Shown piece by piece: positions 6,067 to 12,792 of a stretch of DNA of 54,424 nt; within the stretch, counting starts at the first letter, position 1, and every line of letters begins with the position of its first letter. The notes under the pieces are model-generated. The model worked only from the letters and a program-made list of their open reading frames with translations. It searched no databases and was not told the DNA's origin. The DNA is from an uncultured Anaerolineales bacterium (GTDB taxonomy: Bacteria > Chloroflexota > Anaerolineae > Aggregatilineales > Aggregatilineaceae): positions 1-54,424 of the forward strand of contig CAKZOB010000083.1 of the NCBI GenBank assembly GCA_937135955.1, written 5' to 3'. A program made the translations under genes and the position numbers.

Positions 6067-6139
6067 GTAGTGGAATCTGCGGCAGGCAGGGCGATGACCA
6101 TAGCAGGCATGGCCCCCGGCTGGCGAATGGGTGGCAAAC

Positions 6140-7228
6140 ATGTTCAGAGCACTGGGACGATATGGGCTGGCCCTGTTGTTGTTGACTGCAGCCCTCTGGC
6201 TGGAGTGGCCGGGATTGAACGCTGCGCACGGTCAGGGTCAGAACGGTCCGGCGGCGCTCTTCGGTTTTGTGATAGACAAACAGGGTCACCCCATCGCCGA
6301 CGTTGAGGTAGAAGTCCACTATGATGGCGAGTCAGAGCCGGTGGCGCTGGCGCGCAGTCATGCTGACGGGCTGTGGGAAATCAACCTGCCACAATTGCCC
6401 GATAGCCCGGCGCATCTCACCTTTTCTCACACACATTTCGAGACCGATCCCCTGAAACTCGATGCTGCGCAGATTGAGGGATTGCAGCACGGTGGCTCCG
6501 TAGGCCTGGGCGAAATCGTCATGCGCAATCGCTATGCGCCGGGGTTCTGGGTGGCGACCGGCACCTTTGTGCTGGTGTTGGTGCTCATGGCTGCCGAGAC
6601 AATGCCGAGCGCGACGGTGGCCTTGCTCGGCGCGGCCATTGTTTTTGCCTCCACTTTCTTCGGCGGACGTTTGGTGCCAGGGCTGTACATCTTCGATTTT
6701 GAGCGCGCGCTGACATACATCAACTGGGAAGTGATCTTCCTGGTGATGGGCATGATGATCGTCGTCGGAGTCATTGAAAGCACGGGCTTGTTCCAATGGC
6801 TGACGTTTCAGTCCTACCGCTGGAGCAGGGGACAGCCCGTGTTGTTGATGCTGATCCTGGTCGCGATCACCACGCTGGCGTCGGCGTTGCTGGACAACGT
6901 GACCACCATGTTGCTGATGGTGCCCATCACCCTGGAAATTGCGGTCGCTCTGGAATTGCCGCCACAGTCGCTGCTGATCCCGGAAATCTTTGCGTCCAAC
7001 ATCGGGGGGATCATGACCCTGATTGGCACACCGACGAACATCTTGATCGGGGCACAGGCGGGCATCTCGTTCAATGATTTTTTGCTCAACCTGATGCCAG
7101 GCGGTGTACTGGCCGTGCTGGTCATGGTCGCCTGTGTACTGTGGTTCTTTCGGCACGACTACACCAGAGGCGAAAGAGGCATCTCGCCGACGCTATACGC
7201 CAGGCTGGCACAGAACGCGGCCATCTAG
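6140..7228 (+). CDS. SLC13/ArsB-NhaD-like permease, N-terminal half (ends at in-frame TAG)
   Basis: This frame encodes a signal-like hydrophobic N-terminus, a small beta-sandwich of carboxypeptidase-regulatory type (GFVIDKQGHPIADVEVEV onward, about residues 40-110), and then about six membrane segments of the ion-transporter superfamily, including the first conserved hairpin, IGTPTNILIGAQAG. It stops at TAG 7226-7228. The missing second half continues in the same frame at 7238-7861. I chose ATG 6140, with GGGTGG six bases upstream; GTG 6131 is an alternative. The substrate (dicarboxylate, Na+/H+, arsenite or sulfate) cannot be told. Either the gene was inactivated by one nonsense change, or it works as a split or readthrough protein. 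Confidence 0.8.
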   Translation: MFRALGRYGLALLLLTAALWLEWPGLNAAHGQGQNGPAALFGFVIDKQGHPIADVEVEVHYDGESEPVALARSHADGLWEINLPQLPDSPAHLTFSHTHFETDPLKLDAAQIEGLQHGGSVGLGEIVMRNRYAPGFWVATGTFVLVLVLMAAETMPSATVALLGAAIVFASTFFGGRLVPGLYIFDFERALTYINWEVIFLVMGMMIVVGVIESTGLFQWLTFQSYRWSRGQPVLLMLILVAITTLASALLDNVTTMLLMVPITLEIAVALELPPQSLLIPEIFASNIGGIMTLIGTPTNILIGAQAGISFNDFLLNLMPGGVLAVLVMVACVLWFFRHDYTRGERGISPTLYARLAQNAAI

Positions 7229-7237
7229 GATGTCGGT

Positions 7238-7861
7238 GTGCTACGCAAATCGCTGGTCGTCTTCGCGCTGACCATTCTGTTGTTCGCCGTGGGCGAGCCG
7301 TTGCGGATGGTGCCCGCGGTAACCGCCCTGCTGGCCGCGACGGTCATGCTGGTATGGGTCGAAACCGATGTGGAGATGATGATCGACCTGGTGGATTGGA
7401 CGACCCTCGTTTTCTTCATGGCACTTTTTATGGTCGTGGGGGCCATCCAGGAAGTAGGGTTGATCGGAGCCATTGCAGGTGTCATGGGTGCCCTTGTTGG
7501 GAGCAACCTGTATGTGGGCCTGTTCACCGTAGTGCTTGGGGGTGGCTTGCTATCTTTTGTCGTGGCCAGCATTCCTTTGACAGCAGCGTTGCTGCCGGTA
7601 GTTGAGTTTCTTTCTGGGCGCATTCCGGGCGCTATGACGAGCAAGATTCTGTATTACGGACTCTCCATGGGCACCGGGCTGGGCGGCAACGGCTTGCTGA
7701 TCGGTGGCGAAACCAATCTGATGACCGCCGGCGTTGCCGACCGGGCTGGCTTCCGGGTGAGCTTCGCTTCGTTCGCTCGTGTGGGCATTCCTGCGACGCT
7801 GCTGTCGCTGCTCACTGGCAGCCTGTGGTTGCTGCTGCGCTTTGAAGTGTTGGGGGGGTGA
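7238..7861 (+). CDS. SLC13/ArsB-NhaD-like permease, C-terminal half (in frame with 6140-7228)
   Basis: The 207 residues begin at GTG 7238, nine bases after the TAG and in the same frame. They supply what the upstream frame lacks: the linker LRKSLVV, five or six membrane segments, and the second signature loop LLIGGETNLMTAGVADRAG. The pair together has the length of one full permease. An AGGA at 7227-7230, seven bases before the GTG, could let ribosomes restart here, so two polypeptides that assemble in the membrane are possible. The universal stress gene follows three bases after the stop. The family assignment is good; whether this is a gene or half of a pseudogene is open. Confidence 0.7.
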   Translation: MLRKSLVVFALTILLFAVGEPLRMVPAVTALLAATVMLVWVETDVEMMIDLVDWTTLVFFMALFMVVGAIQEVGLIGAIAGVMGALVGSNLYVGLFTVVLGGGLLSFVVASIPLTAALLPVVEFLSGRIPGAMTSKILYYGLSMGTGLGGNGLLIGGETNLMTAGVADRAGFRVSFASFARVGIPATLLSLLTGSLWLLLRFEVLGG

Positions 7862-9125: not shown

Positions 9126-10226
9126 TCAGGGCAGTTCCAGGCCCAGTTGTCCGCCCCCGTCACGCAGCATGGTGATGATCTTCTGATCGGTCACTGGAAA
9201 AGCGTAGCGGTCCAGGTCTTCGAGTGTCACCCAGGCCCACTCGGAGCAACCTATGGCGCGCGGTTCGCCACTGAGATGGCGGCAGGCGAAGACATAGAGG
9301 GTGATGCGGAAGTGCGTATAGGCGTGACGAACCGTGCCGATCTGTTCGCTTACCTCGATCTCAATGCCCAGTTCCTCGCGGATTTCGCGGCGCAGACACT
9401 CGCGCAGCGATTCGCCTGGTTCGCGCTTGCCGCCAGGGAATTCCCACAGGCCGCCGAGCATACTTTCTGGGGGACGGCGGGCGATTAGAATGCGCCCATC
9501 CTCGCGGCGGGTGACGGCGGCAGTTACGTCGTAGTGCGGCGTGCGGCGACGTGGTTGCCTGACCGGTCGAGATAGTTGCGTGCCGTTGGCGAAGGCGCTG
9601 CAATGTGCTGTCAGTGGGCATTCCTGGCAGCGTGGCGTCGGGGTGGTGCAGATACGCCGCCCCAGCTCCATCAGCGCTTCGTTCCATGCGCCCGCCTGTC
9701 CGGCAGGTAGCAACTCTGTCGCGAGATGCCACAGCGTGTGTTGGGTGCGGCTCTGGGTCACGTCTTCGGCAATATCGAACAGCCGGGTGAGCACGCGGAT
9801 CACGTTGCCATCGAGTACGGGCGCTGCTATGCCAAAGGCCAGGCTGGCGATCGCGCCGGCGGTATAGCGACCAATGCCCGGCAGTTTCTGCAATTGGAGC
9901 GGGTCGCTGGGGAATTGCCCGCCATACTCGGCGACCAGGAGTTGTGCGGTGCGGTGCAAGTTGCGTGCCCGGCTATAGTAGCCCAGGCCTTCCCATGCCT
10001 TGAGCACATCATCGAGAGGGGCTTCTGCCAGCGCGTGTATGGTGGGAAAGCGCGCCATGAAGCGCTCGAAGTAAGGGATCACGGTGGCAACCTGTGTCTG
10101 CTGCAACATGATCTCCGAGACCCAGACGGCATAAGTATCTCGCCTGCGCCGCCAGGGCAGGTCGGCCTGGTGCGCAACGAACCAGGCGAGCAAGGCATCG
10201 TGCAGAGCAGTGGGATCGAGGGACAT
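9126..10226 (-). CDS. mutY: Adenine DNA glycosylase MutY with C-terminal Nudix domain
   Basis: MutY removes adenine mispaired with 8-oxoguanine. The 366 residues show the catalytic Glu38 in VSEIMLQQTQV, the helix-hairpin-helix LQKLPGIGRYTAGAIASLAFG (112-132), catalytic Asp139 in PVLDGNVIRVLTRLF, and the [4Fe-4S] cysteines 193, 200, 203 and 209 in the C-x6-C-x2-C-x5-C pattern. A C-terminal Nudix-like domain follows and keeps a complete GX5EX7REUXEEXGU box (266-290), which suggests real hydrolase ability as well as lesion recognition. The ATG at 10226 overlaps the upstream methyltransferase stop as TGATG, a sign of coupled translation. Confidence 0.95.
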   Translation of the reverse strand: MSLDPTALHDALLAWFVAHQADLPWRRRRDTYAVWVSEIMLQQTQVATVIPYFERFMARFPTIHALAEAPLDDVLKAWEGLGYYSRARNLHRTAQLLVAEYGGQFPSDPLQLQKLPGIGRYTAGAIASLAFGIAAPVLDGNVIRVLTRLFDIAEDVTQSRTQHTLWHLATELLPAGQAGAWNEALMELGRRICTTPTPRCQECPLTAHCSAFANGTQLSRPVRQPRRRTPHYDVTAAVTRREDGRILIARRPPESMLGGLWEFPGGKREPGESLRECLRREIREELGIEIEVSEQIGTVRHAYTHFRITLYVFACRHLSGEPRAIGCSEWAWVTLEDLDRYAFPVTDQKIITMLRDGGGQLGLELP

Positions 10227-10927
10227 CACGTTTCTCGTTTCAGGACGCTGTAGCGGTTGACGTCACCACTGTGCCCGTCGGCGCGATAGGTGAGCACTTC
10301 GCGCAGGCCAGTGGCCTGAATCAGGGCGGCATGTTCTTCGTCGTCCACATAGTGGCAATAGCGCAAGGCGCGCGTGCCGCGCCGCCATTCCAGCAAGTAG
10401 TCACCAGGTTCGGCGCGCAATTCGGGCGGAAAGGGCACAATGCGCTGGCGAAAGCGCGCGTATTCGTAGAAACGCCAGGCGGTGAAGACCAGCAGCCCAC
10501 CCGGCGCCACACGCGTAGCCAGGGCGTGCATGAAATCGCGCCGGTTGTCACGGCCTGGGATGTGATGCAACATGCCGAAGAGCACCACCAGATCATAAGT
10601 GTCGGACGGCAGCGGTTCGCCCAGCACGTCGCGCTGTTCCAGGCGGGCCGTGTGGCCGCTCAGCGCGATCTGCGCAAAGCTCAATAACTGAGAGTTGCTA
10701 TCCACTCCATGGTACGTTACGTTTGTCCCCAGGCGCTCGAACAGAAAGACCCCGAAGCGCCCGTTGCCGCAGGCCACATCCAGCACGCTGAGCGGCGTGC
10801 TGAGCAAAGGCAACAAAGCCTCCCAGCCAGGCCAGGGAGCAGTGCGGGTCTGGTCGAAGTCGGCGGCGGTGATCTGGTAAAATGCACGGTTGAGCGCGTT
10901 CAGCCGCGCGATCGTTTCGGCATCCAC
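10226..10927 (-). CDS. Trm9/ALKBH8-like SAM methyltransferase, possibly for tRNA wobble uridine
   Basis: The 233 residues are a class I SAM methyltransferase: motif I LDVACGNGRF (49-58), HGVDSN (73-78), LFGMLHHIPGRDNRRDFMHAL, and VAPGGLLVFTAW. The N-terminal signature FYQITAADFDQTRTAPWPGW (16-35) and the HH pair followed by a tryptophan closely recall eukaryotic Trm9 and ALKBH8, which methylate 5-carboxymethyluridine at tRNA position 34 (their FS-TR--PWP motif). That carboxymethyl group is made by Elp3, and elp3 is the divergent neighbour 38 bases away. The start is GTG 10927. The stop overlaps the mutY start (TGATG). The fold is certain; the tRNA role is inference from motif and neighbour. 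Confidence 0.75.
   Translation of the reverse strand: MDAETIARLNALNRAFYQITAADFDQTRTAPWPGWEALLPLLSTPLSVLDVACGNGRFGVFLFERLGTNVTYHGVDSNSQLLSFAQIALSGHTARLEQRDVLGEPLPSDTYDLVVLFGMLHHIPGRDNRRDFMHALATRVAPGGLLVFTAWRFYEYARFRQRIVPFPPELRAEPGDYLLEWRRGTRALRYCHYVDDEEHAALIQATGLREVLTYRADGHSGDVNRYSVLKRET
10875..10883 (+). promoter_or_regulatory. Possible extended -10 promoter for elp3
   Basis: TGG immediately before TAAAAT (10878-10883) fits an extended -10 element. A start near 10890 would give a leader of about 75 bases to the elp3 ATG. There is no clear -35, and the site lies inside the divergent methyltransferase gene. Confidence 0.3.
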
Positions 10928-10965
10928 AGGGCACTTAGCAGTCGAGCAGGTATTCGGAACCTATC

Positions 10966-12792
10966 ATGGGCAAACACTACCGTCCACCGGTTGAACTCGA
11001 GAATTATCGAGACGCGCTCCTGGCGATCTTACAGGAAGTCGTGCGCGAACCCAATCTGACGCCAACGCGCCTCATTCAGATTCTCAAGCAACATCCCAGG
11101 GATGGGCAAGGGTTGTTCAACAAGAACGACCTGATCCACGCTTATCGGCACCTGGCCGGGACGAATGGATTGCCCCCGTTCGACCCGGAAGTCCTGGCTC
11201 GGCTGCGCATGAAACCCATCCGTACCATGTCCGGTGTGACGCCGGTCACAGTGCTGACCAAGCCGTACCCCTGCCCTGGCGAGTGCATCTTCTGCCCGAA
11301 TGATGTGCGGATGCCCAAGAGCTACCTGGCGCGTGAACCAGGGGCGCAACGGGCGGAGCAGAACAACTTCGATCCCTACCTGCAGGTCTACTCACGCCTG
11401 ACCACACTTTATGAAACCGGGCATCCCCTGGACAAGATCGAGTTAATTGTCCTGGGTGGGACGTGGTCATTTTACCCTGAAACCTATCAGGTGTGGTTTG
11501 TCAGGCGGATGTTCGAGGCGCTGCACGATTTCGGCGCAGGCATTGACCGGACGGACGAAGTGCGCGCGTTGTTGCGGCAGGCGTCGCAGTTGCACCCGGA
11601 ACAGGCAACTCCGGTGACGCTGCATGGAACCGCGTTGGATCGCACTTACAATCAGGTGGTGCAGCAGATTTACCGCCAGGAGATGGCGCGTTCGCGCGAA
11701 CTGGCGCAGGCGGTGGCGCGAGGGCAACGTCCCCGTACGGTGGTAGACGAGTATGCTACCTGGGAAGAACTGGCCGAAGTGCAGCGCCAGAACGAAACTG
11801 CGCCATGCCGCTGTGTGGGGCTGGTGATCGAGACGCGCCCCGATTATCTGAGCGTGGACGAAGTGATCCGCATCCGGCGGCTGGGCGTGACCAAGGTGCA
11901 GATCGGGGTACAAAGCCTTGATGACGAGATCCTGCGGAAGAACCGGCGCGGTCATACCGTCGCCATGACACGGGAGGCTTTTCGCCTGCTACGCCTGGCT
12001 GGCTTCAAGATTCACGCGCACTGGATGCCGAACCTGTACGGCTCGTCACCGGAAGCGGACATTGCGGACTATCAGCGCCTGTTCTCCGATCCGGATATTC
12101 GCCCTGACGAACTGAAGATATACCCCTGCTCGTTGATCGAGAGCGCCGAACTCATGCAGGTCTATCAGCGTGGGGAATGGCAGCCCTATTCGCATGAGGT
12201 GTTGCTGGATGTGCTGGTCAACTGCTTTCTACAAACGCCGGAATATTGCCGCCTGACGCGCGTCGTGCGCGATATCCCTTCGACGGATATTGTGGCGGGA
12301 GACATGAAACCGAATTTCCGCCAACTGGTCGAAGCGGCGTTGCAGCAGCGCGGGTTGCGTAGCCCGGACATCCGCGGACGGGAGATTCGCGGCAAGACTG
12401 TAGCACCGGAAGCGCTGCATCTGGACGAACTGTGGTATGAGACAGGGGTCGGTCAAGAGGTTTTCCTGCAATACATCACAGACGATCGGCGGATCGCGGC
12501 CTTTTTGCGGCTGTCGTTACCCACAGCGGCACCTCTGTTGCCTGAGTTGCAGGGGGCAGCCATGATCCGCGAGGTGCACGTCTACGGGCAGGCGGTATCC
12601 ATTGGTGAGAAGGTGCGGGGCAGGGCGCAACACAGCGGACTGGGTACCCGCCTGATCGAGCGGGCGGTGCAGATTGCCCGCGAGCATGGCTTTGCGCGGT
12701 TGGCGGTGATTTCGGCAGTGGGGACGCGATCGTACTACAGGGCACGGGGTTTTGAAGATGGCACACTATATCAGTTGCGGCCCCTGAAATGA
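10966..12792 (+). CDS. elp3: Elp3-like tRNA uridine(34) carboxymethyl-forming enzyme (radical SAM + acetyltransferase)
   Basis: The 608 residues have both Elp3 halves. The radical-SAM half carries YPCPGECIFCP with Cys103, Cys107 and Cys110 for the [4Fe-4S] cluster, followed by IELIVLGGTWSFYPE, VGLVIETRPDYLS and VQIGVQSLDDEILRKNRRGH. The C-terminal acetyltransferase half has the acetyl-CoA loop GRAQHSGLGTRLIERA and ends FARLAVISAVGTRSYYRARG. Elp3 uses acetyl-CoA and SAM radical chemistry to put a carboxymethyl group on C5 of wobble uridine; single-protein bacterial Elp3 is known from Dehalococcoides. It diverges from the Trm9-like gene. The following DUF4230 gene could be cotranscribed. Confidence 0.95.
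   Translation: MGKHYRPPVELENYRDALLAILQEVVREPNLTPTRLIQILKQHPRDGQGLFNKNDLIHAYRHLAGTNGLPPFDPEVLARLRMKPIRTMSGVTPVTVLTKPYPCPGECIFCPNDVRMPKSYLAREPGAQRAEQNNFDPYLQVYSRLTTLYETGHPLDKIELIVLGGTWSFYPETYQVWFVRRMFEALHDFGAGIDRTDEVRALLRQASQLHPEQATPVTLHGTALDRTYNQVVQQIYRQEMARSRELAQAVARGQRPRTVVDEYATWEELAEVQRQNETAPCRCVGLVIETRPDYLSVDEVIRIRRLGVTKVQIGVQSLDDEILRKNRRGHTVAMTREAFRLLRLAGFKIHAHWMPNLYGSSPEADIADYQRLFSDPDIRPDELKIYPCSLIESAELMQVYQRGEWQPYSHEVLLDVLVNCFLQTPEYCRLTRVVRDIPSTDIVAGDMKPNFRQLVEAALQQRGLRSPDIRGREIRGKTVAPEALHLDELWYETGVGQEVFLQYITDDRRIAAFLRLSLPTAAPLLPELQGAAMIREVHVYGQAVSIGEKVRGRAQHSGLGTRLIERAVQIAREHGFARLAVISAVGTRSYYRARGFEDGTLYQLRPLK

Follow-up and report, generated by a model that had tools for sequence, protein, structure and literature searches.

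Can a bacterium make the wobble nucleoside 5-methoxycarbonylmethyluridine (mcm5U34) with Elp3 and a Trm9-like methyltransferase encoded back to back? The question is raised by a locus on contig CAKZOB010000083.1 of an uncultured Anaerolineales bacterium (Chloroflexota; assembly GCA_937135955.1); the whole stretch of 54,424 nucleotides that was analysed is called the window here. In eukaryotes, Elp3 (as part of Elongator) and Trm9/ALKBH8 with Trm112 make mcm5U34. The original prediction, made from the letters of the window, held that this bacterium may carry a two-gene version of that pathway, and the idea is now supported by the linkage of the two genes, by the resemblance of the methyltransferase to Trm9 and by its low scores with UbiE models. 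We estimate at about three in four the probability that Elp3 and the Trm9-like methyltransferase constitute a bacterial wobble-uridine pathway to mcm5U34, one that replaces MnmE/MnmG and has no detectable Trm112 in the window's genome.

The elp3-methyltransferase gene pair

The predicted size of the methyltransferase, its distance from elp3 and the divergent orientation are borne out by coordinates, strands and start codons (Table 1), and the letters named for the protein (FYQITAADFDQTRTAPWP, CGNGRF, HH and TAW) are all present. We refer to the window's methyltransferase lineage as type I, and to the lineage found beside elp3 in Chloroflexota outside the window's class as type II; type II is the more Trm9-like of the two. 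The proposed N-terminal signature stood in part: the R of TR is invariant in the 23 type I rows aligned, and the first P of 'PWP', found as P in 7 of the 23, did not hold. The methyltransferase open reading frame (ORF) is not a chance one, because 65 of the 150 class genomes searched contain relatives at E <= 1e-12, mostly full length. Its nearest named relatives belong to Anaerolineae, Chloroflexota, among them locus L039 at 65% identity.

The window Elp3 scored 472.5 bits with TIGR01211 (cut-off 350), and the Pfam domains Radical_SAM, Radical_SAM_C and Acetyltransf_1 were above cut-off. Its residues C103, C107, C110, K157, K348, E536 and Y590 match those of DmcElp3 (PDB 5l7j), a member of the same enzyme family; we take the three cysteines, in a CX3CX2C motif, to be the cluster cysteines. 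The catalytic residues described for DmcElp3 are K77, K193, E386 and Y441 (PMC6367351; this and the other papers are cited for particular passages). The window Elp3 is full length and its catalytic residues are intact. It differs from DmcElp3 in its longer N-terminus, the aligned segments being residues 83-192 and 269-600. Between these segments the window protein has an insert, some 75 residues that DmcElp3 lacks (residues 193-268, window positions 11542-11769). In five small Chloroflexota genomes (G315, G176, G184, G322, G382) the Elp3 profile matches contain one or two in-frame stops.

Table 1. Position of the gene pair and the adjoining gene in the window
Feature	Positions	Strand	Details
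Trm9-like class I S-adenosylmethionine (SAM) methyltransferase, type I	10226-10927	minus	233 aa, GTG start
Spacer between the two divergent start codons	10928-10965	none	38 bp
elp3, radical SAM and GNAT enzyme, expected to make cm5U34	10966-12792	plus	608 aa, ATG start
mutY	9126-10229	minus	TIGR01084 332.1 bits, cut-off 286.5

Co-occurrence and linkage with elp3

We searched 150 genomes of the window's class for the methyltransferase (E <= 1e-12) and for Elp3 (E <= 1e-40). Elp3 was found in 73 genomes, in 72 of them over the TIGR01211 cut-off. Both genes are present in 64 genomes, the methyltransferase alone in 1, Elp3 alone in 9 and neither in 76; the co-occurrence to be looked for across Chloroflexota was thereby found in 64 of the 65 class genomes that carry the methyltransferase. 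The two genes are divergent neighbours in 50 of the 64 genomes with both, with 206-1087 bp between the profile matches; the true intergenic gaps are shorter, because the Elp3 match usually begins about 40-55 positions into the profile. The other 14 comprise one tandem pair on the same strand (G140), one pair 762 kb apart (G067) and 12 pairs on separate contigs. Among genomes of the window's own order, four (G019, G055, G083, G127) carry the two genes on different contigs.

For class genomes with Elp3 alone, type I was sought genome-wide and type II in the fetched neighbourhood only. Nine class Elp3 loci (L139-L147, families f13, f24 and f40) have neither type in the fetched neighbourhood. The sole genome of the 150 with the methyltransferase and no Elp3 match is G146 (L148), for which an assembly gap and a real loss are both possible.

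Linkage was followed outside the class by a profile search of contigs from named genomes, in which the best 80 of 412 relatives were kept with flanks of up to 4 kb; because of this selection the set leans toward the window's lineage. In 39 of the 80 loci elp3 is in the fetched flank, divergent every time, and in 34 linked loci the spacing from the methyltransferase is 18-992 bp. By group, linked loci amount to 19 of 56 in Chloroflexota, 7 of 9 in Myxococcota, 5 of 6 in Acidobacteriota and 8 of 9 in Patescibacteria, Minisyncoccota, Dojkabacteria and WWE3 taken together. Outside Chloroflexota 20 of 24 loci are linked; of the four that are not, two (L091, L105) start at the edge of a contig.

A phylum sample of 251 Chloroflexota genomes contained Elp3 in 45, of which 25 are in the window's class and 20 outside. 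A full-length methyltransferase was present in 24 of the 25, and in all 20 Elp3 loci outside the class a methyltransferase lies directly divergent to elp3. Nineteen of these 20 methyltransferases scored 49.7-65.3 bits with the class (type I) profile. At the 20th locus (L137) elp3 is split over two contigs, and the divergent gene beside the other piece scored 345.9 bits with the type II profile, in the building of which it had no part. The Elp3 proteins of L123 and L126, both beside a type II gene, align to DmcElp3 over 458 residues with 977-985 bits; these close relatives of DmcElp3 differ from the window Elp3 in that the partner of the latter is type I. In Acidobacteriota, type I is divergent to elp3 in 10 of 14 Elp3 loci. 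At 13 Elp3 loci that lack a type I gene (L139-L147, L176, L178, L185, L188), the type II profile gave no match. The type I and type II profiles align with each other at a probability of 99.6.

Loss of linkage in related genomes, which the original prediction had named as evidence against itself, was not what we found: the linkage is deeply conserved and extends across phyla. Nor is it background gene order, because the other neighbour of the methyltransferase, mutY, is kept in 2 of 114 relatives' loci (L039 and L040; some loci are cut by contig ends). For the same reason mutY was rejected as a third member of the pathway.

Mutual exclusion of Elp3 and MnmG, and the search for Trm112

MnmG was searched for with TIGR00136. 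It is present in 48 of the 150 class genomes, and in none of the 73 with Elp3 nor in any with the methyltransferase. In the phylum sample it is present in 100 of 251 genomes and in none of the 45 with Elp3. The two samples overlap; together they contain 107 Elp3 genomes and 146 MnmG genomes, and no genome belongs to both sets. In Acidobacteriota, MnmG was found in 0 of 14 Elp3 genomes versus 207 of 233 without Elp3 (207 of 247 overall). It was likewise found in none of the 24 methyltransferase-carrying genomes from phyla other than Chloroflexota. MnmG was not found in the window's own genome either; these searches covered MnmG and not MnmE.

The Trm112 family (PF03966) gave no match at E <= 0.001 in the window's genome (22 candidates scored; genome rated 100% complete), in agreement with the predicted pathway without Trm112. 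We call the methyltransferase Trm9-like and do not file it as Trm9 because of this missing Trm112 match. In the class, PF03966 was found in 127 of 150 genomes. There is no sign that the methyltransferase depends on Trm112, because the family is lacking at a similar rate in class genomes with the methyltransferase (10 of 65) and in those without it (13 of 85); Trm112 was therefore rejected as a partner.

Resemblance of the methyltransferase to Trm9

Only generic Pfam models (Methyltransf_25, 23, 12, 31 and 11) were above cut-off for the window methyltransferase, and no NCBIfam model came near its cut-off: UbiG gave 29.2 of the 102.95 bits needed and the best UbiE model 24.3 of 216. A closer relation to UbiE-like enzymes, which would speak against the prediction, was thus not seen. 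NCBIfam gave 22 matches at E <= 0.01, and the CmoM model, which presumably belongs to that library, is not one of them.

Against solved structures, the single window sequence found Trm9 of Yarrowia (5cm2_Z) in fourth place (E 2.5e-5). With profiles, 5cm2_Z became the first PDB match: 50.9 versus 48.3 bits for the runner-up with 30 type I rows, 60.3 versus 53.8 bits with 76 type I rows, and 81.4 versus 76.1 bits with 18 type II rows. Alignment A2 left out L073 (in-frame stop) and L055, L064, L080 and L093 (overlong or partial), and alignment A3 left out L126, one of 19 type II rows. The alignment to Trm9 reaches through the C-terminal RYxH region, whereas the printed runner-up alignments end near the end of the SAM core. 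In the reverse search with Trm9 as query (17 of 20 type II genomes and 13 of 65 type I class genomes taken), the best match was the elp3-linked gene in all 17 type II genomes (E 7.6e-10 to 2.7e-18) and the type I gene in 12 of 13 type I class genomes (E 0.005 to 2.6e-8), for a total of 29 of 30 genomes; the miss is G127.

The key residues of the window methyltransferase are R28, H121-H122, W151, D176, W181, R189, Y190 and N224. In the 23 type I rows both H, the W of TAW, the later D....W and RY are invariant along with the R of TR. Seven positions agree with Trm9, namely the R of TR, the second H of HH, the W of VW/TAW, the D/E and W/F of the D....W lid, and the R and Y/F of RY. All seven are found in 23 of 23 type I and 14 of 14 type II rows and in 0 of 21 other Chloroflexota methyltransferases; these 21 outgroup ORFs were taken untrimmed under two alignment settings, the best of them has 5 of the 7 residues, and 5 to 7 of the 21 are gap-free at the seven columns. 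In ScTrm9, mutation of R29, H115, R241, Y243 or N271 is described as strongly affecting tRNA affinity and activity (PMC5372719). Window residues R28, H122 and R189 correspond by motif to R29, H115 and R241, and are constant in 23 of 23 type I and 14 of 14 type II rows. N224 is nearly invariant; the 5cm2_Z alignments stop before the N271 region.

A maximum-likelihood tree was built from the window sequence, 22 of 79 stop-free type I rows, 14 of 19 type II rows, one incomplete Trm9 sequence and an outgroup with long branches (the 15 matches over 28 bits among 21 from 23 loci). The grouping with Trm9 that was to be checked came out for type II, which Trm9 joins at 96/87; type I as a sister of Trm9 was not recovered, and type I forms a clade of its own (92/85). 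A tree that holds type I, type II and Trm9 together was not rejected (p-AU 0.261).

The predicted model of the methyltransferase (pLDDT, predicted local distance difference test, 96.6) has a class I SAM-dependent methyltransferase fold. The first Foldseek match is 5cm2_Z (E 9.4e-14), nearly tied with others. Structure comparison was dropped as a discriminator in view of this near-tie and of a VIA-align listing without Trm9. From the sequence comparisons, 'Trm9-like' is a secure description of the window methyltransferase.

Proposed pathway and alternatives

In the proposed pathway, Elp3 would use radical SAM chemistry and acetyl-CoA to add a carboxymethyl group to C5 of U34 in some tRNAs, giving 5-carboxymethyluridine (cm5U34); the Trm9-like methyltransferase would then move a methyl group from SAM onto the carboxylate of cm5U34, giving mcm5U34. 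The pair would stand in for MnmE/MnmG, in the window's case in a genome with no detectable Trm112. Both genes, their conserved residues, the divergent linkage and the absence of MnmG from the Elp3 genomes searched are observed; we infer that cm5U34 is the substrate, that mcm5U34 is what the reaction yields and that MnmEG has been replaced. Where Elp3 has no methyltransferase nearby, the modification may end at cm5U or be completed in some other way or by another enzyme, as seems to be the case in archaea.

We lean toward a broader statement, with less confidence than in the pathway itself. Bacteria of at least four phyla would have dropped MnmE/MnmG for a eukaryote-like pair of Elp3 and a Trm9-like enzyme able to work without Trm112, making mcm5U34. 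There would be two lineages: type II, beside the Dehalococcoides-type Elp3, would be sister to eukaryotic Trm9, and type I may have been recruited independently to catalyse that reaction.

Several observations weigh against the proposed pathway. No methyltransferase is near Elp3 in 9 of the 73 class genomes with Elp3 and in 4 of the 14 Acidobacteriota loci (checked in the neighbourhood only), and elp3 is missing from the flank of 41 of the 80 named loci, again the best 80 of 412. The Fisher p-values for co-occurrence in the class (3e-31) and for the exclusion of Elp3 and MnmG in Acidobacteriota (9e-13) ignore phylogeny, and 29 of the 150 class genomes lack both Elp3 and MnmG at the thresholds used (e.g., G003, G005, G008, G010). 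On the side of the methyltransferase, the reverse search puts it first by narrow margins in the window's class, and the tree splits type I from Trm9 plus type II, on a weak branch (73/82). The 50 entries listed by VIA-align do not include 5cm2_Z; 3e8s heads them (Z 21.2), and METTL6 scores 20.7. Where Trm9 has the second Tyr of RYYH, 20 of 23 type I rows carry Cys and 13 of 14 type II rows Tyr; this position would be Y243, provided that R241 corresponds to the Arg of that motif. With the type I profile, eight unlinked methyltransferases from the phylum reached 58.1-64.6 bits, as high as type II. Since unlinked enzymes score equally, it is linkage and shared residues, and not the type I profile score, that tie the two lineages together.

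Three other explanations were weighed. In the first, the methyltransferase acts on U34 after Elp3, but on another Elp3-derived group or atom (a different C5 substituent, or the 2'-O), so that the product is not mcm5U. The linkage ties the methyltransferase to Elp3 and not to a chemistry, type I departs from Trm9 at one RYYH position, and 5-carbamoylmethyluridine (ncm5U), itself derived from cm5U, is described in yeast and an archaeon (PMC6367351, PMC5372719). We nevertheless regard such a product as unlikely: the counterparts of R29, H115 and R241, which serve tRNA binding and catalysis in Trm9 (equivalence by motif), are invariant in the examined rows of both lineages.

In the second, the pair is functionally linked and the methyltransferase has a different translational target, either a protein factor or some other site on tRNA. 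Other Trm112 partners act in this way, among them protein and rRNA methyltransferases (PMC5372719), and in the fold comparison METTL6 and NTMT-type enzymes rank no lower than any others. Against this, among solved structures Trm9 gives the best sequence match to both lineages, and in nearly every genome of the reverse search it picks out this methyltransferase, which makes another target quite improbable. The third, a UbiE/UbiG-like small-molecule methyltransferase that lies beside elp3 by chance or through inherited gene order, would fit the purely generic Pfam matches and the pairs found on separate contigs (12) or 762 kb apart (one) among the 64 genomes with both genes, but it was rejected and has very little left in its favour, given UbiE and UbiG scores far from cut-off, a gene that accompanies elp3 in all but one of its 65 class genomes whether linked or not, and a linkage that crosses phyla while the mutY neighbourhood does not persist.

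Relation to known systems

The preferred reading, a two-gene route to mcm5U34, is of a kind already known from eukaryotes and proposed for archaea. The bacterial version appears to be new: the open-licence PMC literature searched yielded no account of a bacterial Elp3-Trm9-like pathway, its two lineages, its range or the exclusion of MnmG. Compared with eukaryotic Elp3 and Trm9/ALKBH8, the Elp3 catalytic residues are likewise conserved and the methyltransferases have TR, HH, W, D....W and RY in common. The bacterial pair differs in consisting of two adjacent divergent genes, with no PF03966 match in the window's genome, and type I differs from Trm9 in its Cys at RYYH and in forming a separate clade.

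A reaction of the same kind, on a wobble-uridine carboxylate, is carried out in Escherichia coli by CmoM, which esterifies uridine 5-oxyacetic acid (cmo5U34) to its methyl ester mcmo5U34. The window methyltransferase differs from CmoM in having elp3 as its partner and no CmoM model among its NCBIfam matches up to E 0.01. MnmE/MnmG also modify C5 of wobble uridines (PMC7663514), as the proposed pair would, and no Elp3 genome searched for both has MnmG.

In Sulfolobus solfataricus elp3 is clustered with a Trm9 homologue, and archaea are described as lacking other Elongator subunits (PMC2584109, PMC5372719). The archaeal pathway was proposed from gene content and this gene cluster, the Trm9 homologue being limited to a subset of archaea (PMC2584109). 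Archaeal Elp3 makes cm5U34 in vitro (PMC5372719, PMC7663514), and mcm5U34 is reported in Haloferax volcanii (PMC7663514). The gene clustering in S. solfataricus is like that of the window; the pair described here is bacterial, and its divergent orientation is conserved.

For bacteria, Elp3 is described as the only conserved part of Elongator in numerous species (PMC13315578), and mcm5U as typical of eukaryotic tRNAs (PMC2584109). A passage of a 2017 review states that no bacterial genes significantly similar to Trm112-dependent methyltransferases were detected (PMC5372719). The corresponding passage of a 2020 review places bacterial Elp3 in one clade (Dehalococcoides) and notes that xcm5U34 derivatives have not been directly demonstrated there (PMC7663514); the range of Elp3 found here is wider than the one given in that passage. 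Our results probably name the purpose of bacterial Elp3 and its partner, and the predicted product can be measured by mass spectrometry. That MnmG appears to be exchanged for the pair of Elp3 and a Trm9-like enzyme bears on the origin of the differences between bacterial and eukaryotic wobble systems.

Other observations in the window

Two same-frame ORFs on the plus strand (6131-7228 and 7238-7861), separated by one stop, resemble by eye the halves of one ion transporter and may be a split gene or two genes; no family search was made for them. The start of mutY overlaps the stop codon of the methyltransferase gene (GTGA), suggesting translational coupling of the two.

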